A DNA stretch of 21,553 nucleotides, from the IMG/VR virus record IMGVR_UViG_3300044837_000035, positions 1 through 21,553 of that record; one strand, 5' to 3'. The notes beneath the pieces were generated by a model. That model did no database searches, had not been told where the DNA came from, and worked only from the letters and a program-made list of their open reading frames with translations. Source of the stretch: a virus. The first letter of the stretch is position 1, and every line of letters starts with the position of its first letter. A program made the translations under genes and the position numbers. Shown piece after piece: positions 12,829 to 20,432 of this stretch.

Positions 12829-12989
12829 CACGCGGCATCCTTGGCGAGGTCGTCCGCGACCTGAAGGCAGAACTGCACATGCTTTAGGATGGCCGCGCGT
12901 TTCTCTTCGTCATATCGGGAGAGATTGAATGCAATATATCTGGCCAGCGAGACCATCTCCGGAGTGAATGCGCCATTCCAATCGGCCAT
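12828..12989 (-). CDS. Very small helical protein
   Basis: The gene encodes 53 residues from ATG 12989, which follows a strong ribosome-binding site (GGGAGG, 7-nt spacer) and overlaps the upstream stop as TGATG; its TGA overlaps the next ATG (12828) the same way. The protein (MADWNGAFTPEMVSLARYIA, then FNLSRYDEEKRAAILKHVQF) is one long amphipathic helix or helix pair with no motif I recognise. The tight fit between the methyltransferase and glycosyltransferase-like genes suggests that it may help one of them, as inference. Confidence 0.65.
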   Translation of the reverse strand: MADWNGAFTPEMVSLARYIAFNLSRYDEEKRAAILKHVQFCLQVADDLAKDAA

Positions 12990-13702
12990 CACGCGGCCTC
13001 CCTATCGATCACGTGCGGAGCTTCCTTGATCATCCATGCGCCGTGGCTGCCGGGCGCAGAGCGGATCTTCCAAGGCAGCGCCTTCTTGGTCAGATAGGCG
13101 TGCGTGGCCAGCCTGCAGCCTTCCCAGGCGTCGTAGTCGTCGATGATGATGGGAGCGCCGACCGAGCAGAGCGGTTCAAGCTCGCGATAGACGCACATGC
13201 AGGGGTCGTACCAGTCGCAATCAACACGCAGGACGGCGATAGCTTCGGGCTTATGCTTGGGCAGCGTGTCGGCCAGCCAGCCCGGAATGACGATGACGTG
13301 GTCCTTGAGGTCCAACGTTCGGATGTTCTCGCGGACTTGGATGTGATCAGCGGTAACGAAGTTGGTCCCGTCCGGGTCAGCCTCACCATCGGCCGTCATC
13401 TTCTGCGCGCGCTCCATCCACCAGCGAGCGTGGTAGCCATCCTCCGGACTGGGCGGCGACATGCCCTGGAACGAGTCGTACATCCACACAGGACGCTGGA
13501 TCGCGCCGTACTGGTAGCGCTGGGCCAGAAGCATGGCGAAGCTGCAGCCGCCCATCCATGTCCCGCACTCCACGAGGTCGCCGGGAATGCCCGCATTGAT
13601 GGCCTCCAGCGTCAGCTCAATCGTGGTCGCCAAGCCGTCATCGGGCACCATGGTATAGGGCCGCACTTCCGCGATGACTTGGGGGATCAGGTCGAAGGCC
13701 AT
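12989..13702 (-). CDS. TylF/MycF-like S-adenosylmethionine-dependent O-methyltransferase
   Basis: This 237-residue enzyme matches the TylF/MycF (macrocin O-methyltransferase) family, which methylates sugar hydroxyls in glycosylated metabolites and polysaccharides. The SAM-binding motif GDLVECGTWMGGCS (41-54) follows an N-terminal helix (GLATTIELTLEAINAGIPGD) typical of the family. Further motifs are YDSFQGM (75-81), VLRVDCDWYD (157-166) and IIIDDYDAWEGCR (185-197), the last two supplying the divalent-metal and catalytic acidic residues. Length is usual for the family. The ATG 13702 overlaps the upstream TGA as TGATG. It sits between terminase and portal genes, an unusual place, two genes before a glycosyltransferase-like protein. 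Substrate is not identifiable from sequence: a virion glycan, a host surface sugar or a small molecule are all possible. Confidence 0.85.
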   Translation of the reverse strand: MAFDLIPQVIAEVRPYTMVPDDGLATTIELTLEAINAGIPGDLVECGTWMGGCSFAMLLAQRYQYGAIQRPVWMYDSFQGMSPPSPEDGYHARWWMERAQKMTADGEADPDGTNFVTADHIQVRENIRTLDLKDHVIVIPGWLADTLPKHKPEAIAVLRVDCDWYDPCMCVYRELEPLCSVGAPIIIDDYDAWEGCRLATHAYLTKKALPWKIRSAPGSHGAWMIKEAPHVIDREAA

Positions 13703-17883: not shown

Positions 17884-18233
17884 GCCGCCTCCTGCTTTGG
17901 CTGTGCCCAGGATGCGCGGACCTCGGCTATTTGCGAATCCCAATCTTCATTCGTCGGCGGCAGCTTCGGCCCGAACATCCGCACTCGAGCTTGCGAGACA
18001 GCCCGCATGTCGCATTCCTCGATCTGTGCGGGCGTCAGGTGCTGCCAGTCAGCGCGTGAGCACCGTTCCAGAGCCATCAGCAGACATGCCGCGTAGACCT
18101 GCTCGGGGCGGTTGTTGCGTATTCGGGCGCCCTGCACTTCCATCCAGATCTTGATGTTGGCGGTGCGGCGCTTGGCTTGGGCGCGAAGATCGTCGCCAAT
18201 CGGTGGCCCAACGTCGGATGGTTTGAAGCTCAT
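17880..18233 (-). CDS. Small phage protein, unknown function
   Basis: This gene encodes 117 residues from ATG 18233, overlapping the upstream stop as ATGA; an ATG four codons earlier is less likely. Visible are a basic start (KPSDVGPPIGDDLRAQAKRR), a helical middle (RPEQVYAACLLMALERCSRA) with DWQHLTPAQIEECDM, and a charged C-terminal half with TNEDWDSQIAEVRASWAQ. No catalytic motif or membrane segment. It directly follows the probable helicase-loader gene, so a replication accessory role is possible. The C-terminal coding end is the source of a local duplication (see the direct repeats). Confidence 0.68.
   Translation of the reverse strand: MSFKPSDVGPPIGDDLRAQAKRRTANIKIWMEVQGARIRNNRPEQVYAACLLMALERCSRADWQHLTPAQIEECDMRAVSQARVRMFGPKLPPTNEDWDSQIAEVRASWAQPKQEAA
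17881..17929 (-). repeat. Direct repeat copy 2 (end of the 117-residue gene and start of the 65-residue gene)
   Basis: This is the partner of the repeat at 17649-17700, lying 232 bp away. It contains the coding end of the 117-residue gene, the AGGAGG ribosome-binding site and the start of the following gene. The similarity extends across stop, spacer and start, which points to duplication of a translation-coupling junction. Confidence 0.7.
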
Positions 18234-18766
18234 GCTGGGCGCCATCTCACCAGCGCATCACGCAACTGCTTGCGCCCGCTCATCCGCTTGTCGCATTCGT
18301 TCTTGAGCTCCGACCATGTCGGCCAGAATTGGTTGGCGTTCGTCCACGCATCGCAGGCAGCCGCTACAATATCAGCCGGATATGTAGCCAGGCGCTGGGT
18401 GTACGCAGTCGCCATCAATTCGGTGTCGACCCCATCGCGGGCGCGGTGCGCCGTCAGCACGCGAAGCTCGGCCAGCTTTTGTGCGGCAAATCTGTGCTCG
18501 CACGGGTCACACAAGACCAGCAGCTTGCCAAGGCATTGATCGACGTACATCGGATCTGCGCCCTTGCGGACAGCAACGTCCGTGATCTTGACGCCCTCGT
18601 AGCCGTGGCTGCCGTATTGGCTAGTTTCTCCCCAGACGATCAGCGGCTCGAGCGAATGCGCCAGCGTCACCGCCTGGGCCGGCAGGTCGAATACCGCTAG
18701 CGCTCCGTGGCTTTCTCTCAGCGTCGGTGTTGCACCAGATTCGGAAACGGCGTTCCCAAGCGGCAT
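18230..18766 (-). CDS. Probable replicative helicase loader / lambda P-like replication partner
   Basis: This 178-residue protein follows the initiator gene in the O-P arrangement known from lambda. The C-terminal half is the informative part: QKLAELRVLTAHRAR (96-110), LMATAYTQRLATYPADIVAA (117-136), NQFWPTWSELKNEC (145-158). The 'LxxLRxLTxxR ... YxxRLxxYPADIVxxAxxxW ... FxPTxxEL' pattern is that of small replication proteins next to phage initiators, where one member loads the host helicase. I give ATG 18766, but an ATG at 18916 has a better ribosome-binding site (AAGGA, 7-nt spacer) and would add 50 Ser/Thr/Arg-rich residues. Either start overlaps the initiator gene in another frame (146 or 296 nt). 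The end overlaps the next gene as ATGA. The family call is moderate. Confidence 0.6.
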   Translation of the reverse strand: MPLGNAVSESGATPTLRESHGALAVFDLPAQAVTLAHSLEPLIVWGETSQYGSHGYEGVKITDVAVRKGADPMYVDQCLGKLLVLCDPCEHRFAAQKLAELRVLTAHRARDGVDTELMATAYTQRLATYPADIVAAACDAWTNANQFWPTWSELKNECDKRMSGRKQLRDALVRWRPA

Positions 18767-19346
18767 CAGTTCTTTGCTCTCGCTTACCTCGCCCGTTGGT
18801 GAAGTAATCAGCGAACGACTCCGCGACGTTCTCCGGATCGAGTCCCTTGTCGCTTGCATGGTCTCGGCAAGCGACCGAGGGCTTCCAGTCTGCGGGGAGT
18901 TTGTGGGATTGCTCATTGGGGGTTCCTTGACGGTTCTTATGACGGTTCTTGACGGTTCGACTCCCACCTTGGGAGGGGTCCCCGGTCACCATGGGAGGGG
19001 TGGGCGGACAATCTGGGAGGGGTGGATGGTCAGGTTGGGAGTGGTCAATTTGACCATCCCCCAAAGTGGGACTCCCACCTTGGGAGGGGTGCCAGTCGAA
19101 ATTGATGATGAAGACATCGCTCTGTCCGGCGCGGGATTCGCGACTTACGATCCCAAGATCAGCGACGCGCTGTAGTGCACGGCGAGCGGTCTTCTCGCTG
19201 CAACCAGCGAATAGCGCTATACGAGCAACAGACGGCCAGCACCGACCGCTCTCGTCTGAGTGATCGGCCAGCGCATTCAGAGCCGCCTTGGCCGCCATGT
19301 CATTCAATCGGAGGCTGAACGACCAACTGAGGGCGCGCACACTCAT
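18621..19346 (-). CDS. Replication initiator protein with winged-helix domain (lambda O-like arrangement)
   Basis: This 241-residue protein has an N-terminal helix-turn-helix/winged-helix domain (residues about 19-70: KAALNALADHSDESGRCWPS, then VARIALFAGCSEKTARRALQ, VADLGIVSRES), the kind found in phage replication initiators that bind origin repeats. Residues about 85-147 are a Pro/Gly/Ser linker, and 148-206 form a C-terminal domain (LPADWKPSVACRDHASDKGL, then NVAESFADYFTN and DAAWERRFRIWC), a conserved phage replication module. The linker-coding DNA holds the iteron arrays described separately, as the origin lies in the lambda O gene. ATG 19346 has GGGAGG seven bases upstream and overlaps the VRR-NUC stop as TGATG. 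The final part overlaps the next gene. The protein probably opens the origin and recruits the loader or helicase. Confidence 0.82.
   Translation of the reverse strand: MSVRALSWSFSLRLNDMAAKAALNALADHSDESGRCWPSVARIALFAGCSEKTARRALQRVADLGIVSRESRAGQSDVFIINFDWHPSQGGSPTLGDGQIDHSQPDHPPLPDCPPTPPMVTGDPSQGGSRTVKNRHKNRQGTPNEQSHKLPADWKPSVACRDHASDKGLDPENVAESFADYFTNGRGKREQRTDAAWERRFRIWCNTDAERKPRSASGIRPAGPGGDAGAFARAADRLGRN
18928..18958. repeat. Three short direct repeats next to the iterons
   Basis: TGACGGTTC occurs at 18928-18936, 18940-18948 and 18950-18958 (plus strand), starts 12 and 10 bp apart, close to one helical turn. They lie inside the initiator gene, eleven bases from the first iteron core. The unequal spacing, not a multiple of three in one case, argues that the repeat is conserved as DNA. 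They may be extra protein sites or part of a melting region. Confidence 0.65.
18960..19090. repeat. Iteron-like array, probable replication origin
   Basis: The 10-bp core TGGGAGGGGT (plus strand) begins at 18970, 18992, 19014, 19036 (with one mismatch, TGGGAGTGGT) and 19081. The first four are exactly 22 bp apart; the fifth is 45 bp farther. The first and last are embedded in an identical 20-bp element ACTCCCACCTTGGGAGGGGT that contains the inverted pair CTCCCA/TGGGAG. Between the fourth and fifth is a palindrome, GGTCA-ATT-TGACC (19043-19055). Because 22 is not a multiple of three, the repeats are read in different frames (PSQGG, PTPPM, PPLPD, SQP), so protein selection cannot explain them. 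By analogy with lambda they probably bind the encoded initiator. Confidence 0.82.
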
Positions 19347-19795
19347 CAGCGTCCCTCCCGCGAGGGGGAAACGGTGGCGTGGAGCTCCACCTTGCAGAAG
19401 CGAAGCGCCTTCTCGACCTCTTCAACCGAGCGGCAGAGGATGTACCAAGCAGCGCAATCCTTGAATTTTTGTTCCATGGCTCGCTGCTCAGGAGATTGCC
19501 TGCCAACTTTTGTCTTAAGCTCAAGACCAACCAACACCATTCCAGTCGGAAAGCGCGCCATCACCAGAATATCCGGCCACCCCGGATGCATGCCCATGGC
19601 CTTTAGCTGCCCGCCACGCGCCTTTCCCCCGCCGCCGTGGCCGATGGTCGTCCAAATCGTCGGAGGCCTCAGGGCGAGCCGCAGATAGTCAGCAACGGCC
19701 TTGTGAAGCTGCTGCTCTGGTTGGGCGCGTTTCTTGTTGCGCCAATACCGCTTCAAGCCTTCGCTGGTGGCGATCTGGTTGGGACTGCGGCTCAT
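19346..19795 (-). CDS. VRR-NUC domain nuclease
   Basis: This 149-residue protein carries the VRR-NUC fold of the PD-(D/E)XK superfamily. Motifs are PEQQLHKAVADYLRL (26-40), GHGGGG and GHPGWPD-type HPGWPDILV (70-78; Asp75), LELKTKVGRQSPEQ (91-104; Glu92, Lys94) and the final helix RAMEQKFKDCAAWYIL. The catalytic D ... ExK set is complete. VRR-NUC proteins in phages act as structure-specific nucleases, probably on recombination or replication intermediates. It overlaps the upstream methyltransferase gene by ATGA and the initiator by TGATG, which ties it to replication. Substrate specificity is unknown. Confidence 0.88.
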   Translation of the reverse strand: MSRSPNQIATSEGLKRYWRNKKRAQPEQQLHKAVADYLRLALRPPTIWTTIGHGGGGKARGGQLKAMGMHPGWPDILVMARFPTGMVLVGLELKTKVGRQSPEQRAMEQKFKDCAAWYILCRSVEEVEKALRFCKVELHATVSPSREGR

Positions 19796-20280
19796 GCGGC
19801 GATCCTCGGCGATTTCATCAGCATGCCGAGGCGCCGCTGCGAGGCGATCGCCAAGGCGGCATCTGCCTTAGAGCCGATGCCCATCAATGCAGTGCCGACG
19901 CTTGGTGATCGCCCCACAGTTTGGTCAGGACGCTCGAACTTCACCTTCGGCAGGAACATCAGTGACGAAGACAGCGGCGCGTACTGCTGAAACCACGGCG
20001 CACTCGTACGGTCTGGTGTGAGCGCGATGCCGTTGCCATGCCGAAAGAACTTCGCCAACCAAGGCGCTAGGGCATTGCGACCGCCAAATGGCGGATTCAT
20101 CCAGACGAAGCCGCGCCATTCAGCTTTGAGGCCGTCGTGCCGTTCGTAATAAAGGGCTGGGACGTGGCACCCTCCCGGAGAGGCAGCAACGTCCATATCA
20201 AAGCGGCAGCCGAGCGCGTCGAAGATATACTTGGGCGTGTACCATTCGTTGCTTTTCCCGAGGGCTTCCCAGTGGCTCAT
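19792..20280 (-). CDS. Phage Dam-type DNA N6-adenine methyltransferase
   Basis: This 162-residue protein belongs to the phage DNA N-6-adenine-methyltransferase family. Motifs are SNEWYTPKYIFDALG (10-24), a target or SAM region FDMDVAASPGG (27-37), and the catalytic WMNPPFGGRN (60-69), a variant of D/N-PP-Y/F that flips and methylates adenine. LFRPDQTVG-like residues around 117-123 resemble family motifs. It is short, as usual for this phage family. ATG 20280 overlaps the preceding stop as ATGA, so the 14 residues upstream in frame are excluded. Methylation may protect phage DNA from host restriction or mark origin DNA; no cognate restriction gene lies nearby, so it is probably a solitary enzyme. 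Recognition sequence cannot be read. Confidence 0.9.
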   Translation of the reverse strand: MSHWEALGKSNEWYTPKYIFDALGCRFDMDVAASPGGCHVPALYYERHDGLKAEWRGFVWMNPPFGGRNALAPWLAKFFRHGNGIALTPDRTSAPWFQQYAPLSSSLMFLPKVKFERPDQTVGRSPSVGTALMGIGSKADAALAIASQRRLGMLMKSPRIAA

Positions 20281-20432
20281 GCGAGCGCCAGGCACTTGGT
20301 GGTCAAGTCCCGCAGCCTGCACAGCCAGACATAGCTCCGGGTTTTCTTGTAGGCCGCTTCTGCTCTTGCGCGTTGCTTCTCTACGCGGGTGAGGGCTTGG
20401 CGGCGGCGTCTGTCTTTCTCTCGGATGGTCAT
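20277..20432 (-). CDS. Small basic helical protein
   Basis: A 51-residue protein from ATG 20432 to a stop overlapping the methyltransferase start (ATGA). It is strongly basic and helical (MTIREKDRRRRQALTRVEKQ, then RARAEAAYKKTRSYVWLCRL) with a short hydrophobic end. I find no clear ribosome-binding site, so its expression rests on the downstream coupling. It may bind nucleic acid; function unknown. Confidence 0.55.
   Translation of the reverse strand: MTIREKDRRRRQALTRVEKQRARAEAAYKKTRSYVWLCRLRDLTTKCLALA

Follow-up and report, generated by a model that had tools for sequence, protein, structure and literature searches.

An initiator gene with an internal repeat array

The window, a stretch of 21,553 nucleotides of viral DNA that spans positions 1 to 21,553 of IMG/VR record IMGVR_UViG_3300044837_000035, carries on its minus strand a replication initiator gene whose middle part holds two kinds of short repeat (Table 1). 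Read on the coding strand, ACCCCTCCCA occurs five times and is followed by GAACCGTCA three times, all in mid-gene. Two genes upstream of the initiator lies a gene for a Dam-like DNA adenine methyltransferase (19792–20322, minus strand; PF05869, E = 1.6e-8; phrog_111), and a further methyltransferase-like gene is found between the structural and terminase genes (12989–13702, minus strand; phrog_6608, E = 2e-8).

The N-terminal part of the encoded protein matches HTH_36 at residues 21–67 (E = 9e-11; 41.9 bits against a cut-off of 25), with the recognition helix at approximately residues 49–62 (CSEKTARRALQRVA). Residues 1–211 match phrog_1032 (E = 1.9e-20), and phrog_270 and phrog_391 are matched as well, all three being replication initiation families; by these profile matches the protein is an HTH_36-type phage replication initiator. 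PF04492 (Phage_rep_O) is not among its matches at E 0.1, whereas lambda O itself matches that family at 5.7e-36. A search of PDB sequences returned no relative, nor did a scan of viral-contig proteins with the whole window protein, although DNA patterns and alignments of the HTH alone did find relatives. An AlphaFold model built from 14 aligned relatives shows a confident winged helix at residues 1–85, a stretch of low confidence at about 92–141 and confident helices at about 150–213. The low-confidence stretch between two confident domains places the array in the DNA for a flexible linker, as in lambda O. Only the winged helix has structure matches, and these comprise many winged helices, including 4pt7 ('Structure of initiator', Z 8.2), which we take to be pSK41 RepA; RepA_N gave no match in the profile search, and the likeness is confined to the shared fold.

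Just past the array a downstream open reading frame would begin in the +1 frame, with the start context AAGGAACCCCCAATG and an overlap of about 280 bp with the 3′ end of the initiator gene. It has no family match and is, by its position, a candidate helicase loader. Of 7 genes that were compared, 6 keep the +1 frame open, at a chance openness of P 0.09–0.68 each, which leaves the length of the overlap uncertain and weakens the idea of a conserved long overlap with the downstream gene.

Table 1. Positions of the initiator gene, its repeats and related loci
Feature	Position	Strand	Remarks
Replication initiator gene, 241 aa	18621–19346	-	HTH_36 winged helix, disordered linker, DnaT-like C-terminal domain
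Part coding for the winged helix, aa 1–85, putative iteron binder	19092–19346	-	pLDDT >90 for most
C-terminal DnaT-like helical domain, aa 149–214	18705–18902	-	Weak DnaT match, E 0.001, below cut-off; helices pLDDT >90
Iteron core 1, closest to gene start	19081–19090	+	TGGGAGGGGT
Iteron core 2, single mismatch	19036–19045	+	TGGGAGTGGT
Iteron core 3	19014–19023	+	TGGGAGGGGT
Iteron core 4	18992–19001	+	TGGGAGGGGT
Iteron core 5, last before the AACCGTCA array	18970–18979	+	TGGGAGGGGT
Dyad of last iteron, CTCCCACCTTGGGAG	18961–18975	.	Arms 6, loop 3
Identical dyad at first iteron	19072–19086	.	Within second copy of the 21-bp element
Inverted repeat with GGTCA/TGACC around core 2	19021–19062	.	17-nt arms, 82% complementary
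GAACCGTCA unit 1 (TGACGGTTC on plus strand)	18950–18958	-	About 11 bp from last iteron core
GAACCGTCA unit 2	18940–18948	-	
GAACCGTCA unit 3	18928–18936	-	
Downstream ORF, +1 frame overlap with 3′ part of initiator gene	18230–18904	-	ATG after AAGGAACCCCCA, just past the AACCGTCA array
RothD locus	L188:1407–1647		
BUCT708 locus	L190:1401–1641		
SI8 locus	L189:1401–1641		

Four of the iteron cores follow one another at exact 22-bp steps and the fifth lies 45 bp further on. They are read in frames 1, 1, 2, 0 and 1, which takes in all three frames; the three GAACCGTCA units are in frames 1, 2 and 2. An identical 21-bp element is present at both outer cores (18959–18979 and 19070–19090). Taken by itself, the dyad at the window's last iteron falls short of significance (P 0.24), but many other families have a dyad at this position. 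When the initiator gene was resampled 2,000 times at synonymous positions with the codon usage of the contig, no resampling reached a 10-mer with 4 copies, and the 18 near-identical 10-mers found at 22-bp spacing were never equalled (mean 0.12, maximum 10). Among the close relatives L065, L068 and L069 there are 0–1 synonymous differences per 50 bp of cores and 24–28 per 325 bp around them, a comparison that involves few events and is supportive, not decisive. An AT-rich tract beside the iterons is absent; 60-bp windows over the GAACCGTCA array have 53–57% GC, compared with about 61% for the contig. No Rfam family matches at the array site.

A preliminary description of this DNA had reported five cores, one of them mismatched and four of them 22 bp apart, which agrees with the exact positions, as do the three units spaced 10–12 bp apart (starts at 18928, 18940 and 18950, steps of 12 and 10) and a GGTCA/TGACC palindrome within the array, which we locate in the inverted repeat of Table 1. 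The outer cores do share an identical element, but it is 21 bp long and not 20. The claim that the array is kept as DNA stands, given that the synonymous shuffles never reproduce it and the cores are nearly unchanged in close relatives, where conservation beyond codon constraint was expected and seen. A GC-skew turnover was also looked for, and none was found at the array in this contig, which is a fragment. Two features had been passed over: the last iteron is a dyad, and the TGACGGTTC units are a separate element common to unrelated lineages.

Iterons recur in initiators collected by their HTH alone

When 2.9 million viral contigs were scanned for exact pairs of cores at a distance of 22 bp (TGGGAGGGGT-N12-TGGGAGGGGT), 12 contigs were returned, in 11 of which the array lies within an initiator-type gene; L005 has two cores and no recognisable initiator. 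Close relatives include L003, L004, L007–L011, L013 and L014, and L006 has a distant HTH. L012 is an AT-rich phage with an HTH_36 match above the cut-off and four TGGGAGG copies 22–23 bp apart. At L012:4910–5010, the TGGGAGG(GG) repeat occurs with a different recognition helix and with no AACCGTCA array, and the linker runs into an AT-rich stretch.

For a sample independent of the repeats, initiators were picked by their N-terminal HTH only, with linker DNA playing no part in the selection, giving 57 non-redundant genes. A 9-mer is present at least 3 times in 37 of them, against 0.49 expected from synonymous shuffles, and in 32 of those 37 the copies fall in at least two frames (0.24 expected); under this strict test the other 20 genes have no 9-mer three times. 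Among 51 upstream flanks of the same length, one has such repeats. As a positive control, the identical test recovers the known iterons of lambda O, with 0 of 300 shuffles reaching the count. The repeated sequence varies by lineage (ACCCCTCCCA, GGTGTCACA, ACGGGTGTC, ACCACCGGAC, CCCCGCAGCA and others; the iteron of L178 is GGGTGTAC) and the spacing across the sample peaks at 22–23 bp. Several families have a dyad as their last iteron, just ahead of the second array (CTCCCACCGGTGGGAG in L006, GGGTGTACTGGAGTACACCC in L178 and CCCCTCCCAACGTGGGAGGGG in L072). Most of the HTH_36-domain phage initiators that we met carry an annotation without an origin.

The recognition helix tracks the iteron sequence

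In a comparison of 32 families, iteron similarity rises with identity in the recognition helix (rho 0.31, with 0 of 500 permutations as high), whereas the value for the HTH outside the recognition helix is 0.06. A helix motif of the SEKxARR type, [SDE]E[KN]x[AV]RR, was first seen in the window clade, in L006 and in L170. At least two copies of CCTCCCA are present in 8 of the 10 genes with this motif and in 0 of the 89 without it, counts that are uncorrected for phylogeny and come from few independent lineages. A further scan gave 6–8 CCTCCCA copies in both of two motif genes, one of them on L006's own contig, and none in 17 genes lacking the motif. L160, L169 and L166, the last with a helix (SEKQTRR) that falls just beyond the pattern, have CTCCCA/TGGGAG sites, although siblings by HTH with other helices have GGGTGTC-type repeats. 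The rule is incomplete, since L012 has window-type iterons without a helix of the SEKxARR type.

These comparisons bear on three further points of the preliminary description. The 22-bp period, described there as unfamiliar, turns out to be ordinary: 22–23 bp is the commonest spacing in the class, and lambda iterons are 20–24 bp apart. The likeness to lambda in the placement of the array holds up, given the HTH_36 and phrog matches, the location in the linker and the recovery of the lambda O iterons by the same test. The proposal that the winged helix is the binder is favoured by the comparison of sequences, in which recognition-helix identity follows the iterons and the remainder of the HTH does not.

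A second element shared by unrelated lineages

A de novo word search of 52 initiator genes, with the window clade excluded, was scored against synonymous shuffles. The most enriched 7-mers are GAACCGT (22 genes, 4.2 expected) and AACCGTC (20 genes, 4.5 expected), and ACCGTCA ranks fifth (18 genes, 4.7 expected); the consensus of the element is GAACC(G/A)TCA. Pairs of AACCGTCA 9–14 bp apart occur in 25 of the 57 genes, compared with 2.7 expected, and in none of 51 upstream flanks and none of the antisense strands. The repeats are spaced 10–12 bp apart and use all three frames; the distance from the last iteron to the first unit, measured start to start, is usually about 22 bp. AACCGTCA is translated as EPS, as NRQ or NRH, or as RTV. 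Scanning viral contigs for TGACGGTTCNTNTGACGGTTC gave 50 contigs; of 20 non-redundant open reading frames that carry it, 16 match HTH_36 at E 0.01. One open reading frame that is not obviously of the HTH_36 initiator type, L058:387–1523, has GAACCGTCA units 12 bp apart in a single frame (EPSHEPSNEPSNEP).

Among named phages, the AACCGTCA array stands beside P-like genes in Pseudomonas phi2 and TC7 and beside DnaB in D14O; the initiator genes of phi2, RothD and TC7 lie in regions of the regulator-O-P type, with P-like genes after them. The array was also considered as a marker of one type of helicase loader, an idea that was dropped because both neighbours are seen. Its occurrence across lineages, with P-like genes or DnaB downstream, indicates that the element is independent of both the iteron sequence and the type of helicase gene. 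The initiators of the Pseudomonas phages phi2, TC7 and D14O and of the Klebsiella phage RothD, annotated as 'replication initiation protein' or 'primosomal protein I', resemble that of the window in their HTH_36 domain, in their linker iterons and in the AACCGTCA array or its variant GAACCAGTCA, but differ from it in iteron sequence (ACCCCCGCAG, CCCCGGCAC, CCCCTATGCC). In Klebsiella phage RothD and Stenotrophomonas phage BUCT708, CCCCTATGCC iterons are followed by units of the GAACCAGTCA variant, and Salmonella phage SI8 has GAACCAGTCA-like units and no clear iterons.

We found no description of a shared AACCGTCA element in the literature searched, which consisted of open-licence papers, with subscription journals mostly outside it. 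There, among the results listed, the motif strings occur in unrelated papers only, and the AACC string does not occur together with phage origin terms. The same literature yielded no footprint, EMSA or origin mapping for the HTH_36 family or for phi2, TC7, D14O or RothD, and a DNA search of named phages with the L053 locus, from the commonest group with a AACCGTCA array, returned nothing.

Comparison with known origins

An origin inside the initiator gene is textbook knowledge for lambda. Like the array of the window, the origins of lambda and of Stx phages are situated midway along the initiator gene, with dyad-like iterons that are 20–24 bp apart and in different frames (PMC7466680). Lambda O, a dimer, binds both the iterons and single strands with a high content of A and T (PMC7466680). 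Like the window initiator, it has an N-terminal DNA-binding domain, and a P-type loader lies downstream, as in some of the named relatives. The two differ in family (Phage_rep_O, PF04492, for lambda O and HTH_36 for the window initiator) and in iteron sequence, and lambda has an AT-rich tract at the place where the window has the AACCGTCA array, which the lambda O gene lacks.

In the Bacillus phage SPP1, oriL in gene 38 consists of direct repeats bound by the replisome organizer G38P inside its own gene (PMC6316719). By description it is like the window in having repeats within the initiator gene, those of the window being putative binding sites of the initiator, but an AT-rich element for unwinding is present in SPP1, as is a second origin, oriR. 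The origin of repABC plasmids lies inside the coding region of the initiator repC, and pSK41 has been grouped with such plasmids (PMC3155836). Staphylococcal pSK41 RepA and repABC RepC thus share this placement with the window, but they belong to plasmid families, and the repC origin is A+T-rich and has no iterons, unlike the array of the window. Given initiator-internal origins in lambda, SPP1 gene 38 and repABC plasmids, a single array such as this one belongs to a known kind; what may be new is the shared AACCGTCA element.

A probable replication origin and its alternatives

The reading that we favour, with a probability of roughly 0.86, is that the locus is a phage replication origin embedded in the gene for its initiator, with the winged helix acting on the iterons and the GAACCGTCA array serving as a second element in place of an AT-rich tract. 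What the sequences show is an array in the linker DNA that is conserved non-randomly and irrespective of reading frame, together with a recognition helix that matches its iterons; from this we infer binding, melting and firing of the origin. The N-terminal winged helix of the initiator would bind the five iterons, which present ACCCCTCCCA half-sites, the outer ones completed to CTCCCA-n3-TGGGAG dyads. The iteron-bound initiator would then assemble a nucleoprotein complex resembling the O-some of lambda, which could open or mark the adjoining AACCGTCA array, with its approximately one repeat per helical turn, and the helicase would be loaded there. The GAACCGTCA array may be a strand-opening site, or a foothold for the C-terminal domain of the initiator or for a conserved replication factor; candidate partners for AACCGTCA are that C-terminal domain or a host factor, acting on single- or double-stranded DNA. 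GAACCGTCA recurs every 10–12 bp and keeps register with the dyad of the last iteron; whether it is an undescribed second origin element seems to us an evenly balanced question. It would be a sequence-specific opening or loading site, recognised by something common, that replaces the AT-rich tract in GC-rich phages with unrelated iterons.

The alternative to which we give most room, though still an unlikely one, accepts the iterons as an origin and takes the AACCGTCA array for a separate signal, such as the translation start region of the overlapping downstream gene. A downstream ATG and AAGGA do stand at the end of the array in the window; however, the array spans lineages with different downstream genes (a P-like loader in phi2, DnaB in D14O), and its distance from the last iteron is nearly fixed in most families. 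We consider it rather less probable that the array is an operator through which the winged-helix protein represses or tunes its own replication operon while replication starts elsewhere. The fold is common to regulators of the CRP, MarR and Fur types and the dyads resemble operator sites, but a scan of 18800–19500 found no promoter-like or terminator-like site, the sites sit in mid-gene, multi-copy arrays at 22–23 bp with a second constant element look like origins (as the lambda control does), and replication initiation is the function annotated for the family.

The fold matches include TubR, a partition protein with a winged helix, which would suit another kind of cis-acting site for the initiator: a centromere for partition, or a site of packaging or recombination. 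However, the open reading frames searched include no recognised partition gene, and in named relatives the genes next door encode P-like loaders or DnaB helicase. We regard this possibility as very remote. Least credible of all is that the repeats arise incidentally from a proline-rich linker of low complexity (PPLP, PSQGG) maintained for the protein. That linker is predicted to be disordered and is partly repetitive as protein, but shuffles that preserve the protein yield no such repeats, synonymous sites in the cores hardly change among close relatives, and there are relatives whose cores persist as DNA although the encoded peptide differs. Copies read in three frames also give different peptides, as do the several translations of AACCGTCA.

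Reading origins from sequence

If the locus is an origin of the kind we propose, its pattern of lineage-specific iterons at 22–23 bp, a dyad at the last of them and then AACCGTCA repeats would make origins readable from sequence in many phages and prophages. In it, a variable part that matches the recognition helix stands apart from a constant AACCGTCA part, and this division opens two testable questions, namely the evolution of iteron specificity and the means of strand opening at a phage origin that has no AT-rich tract.
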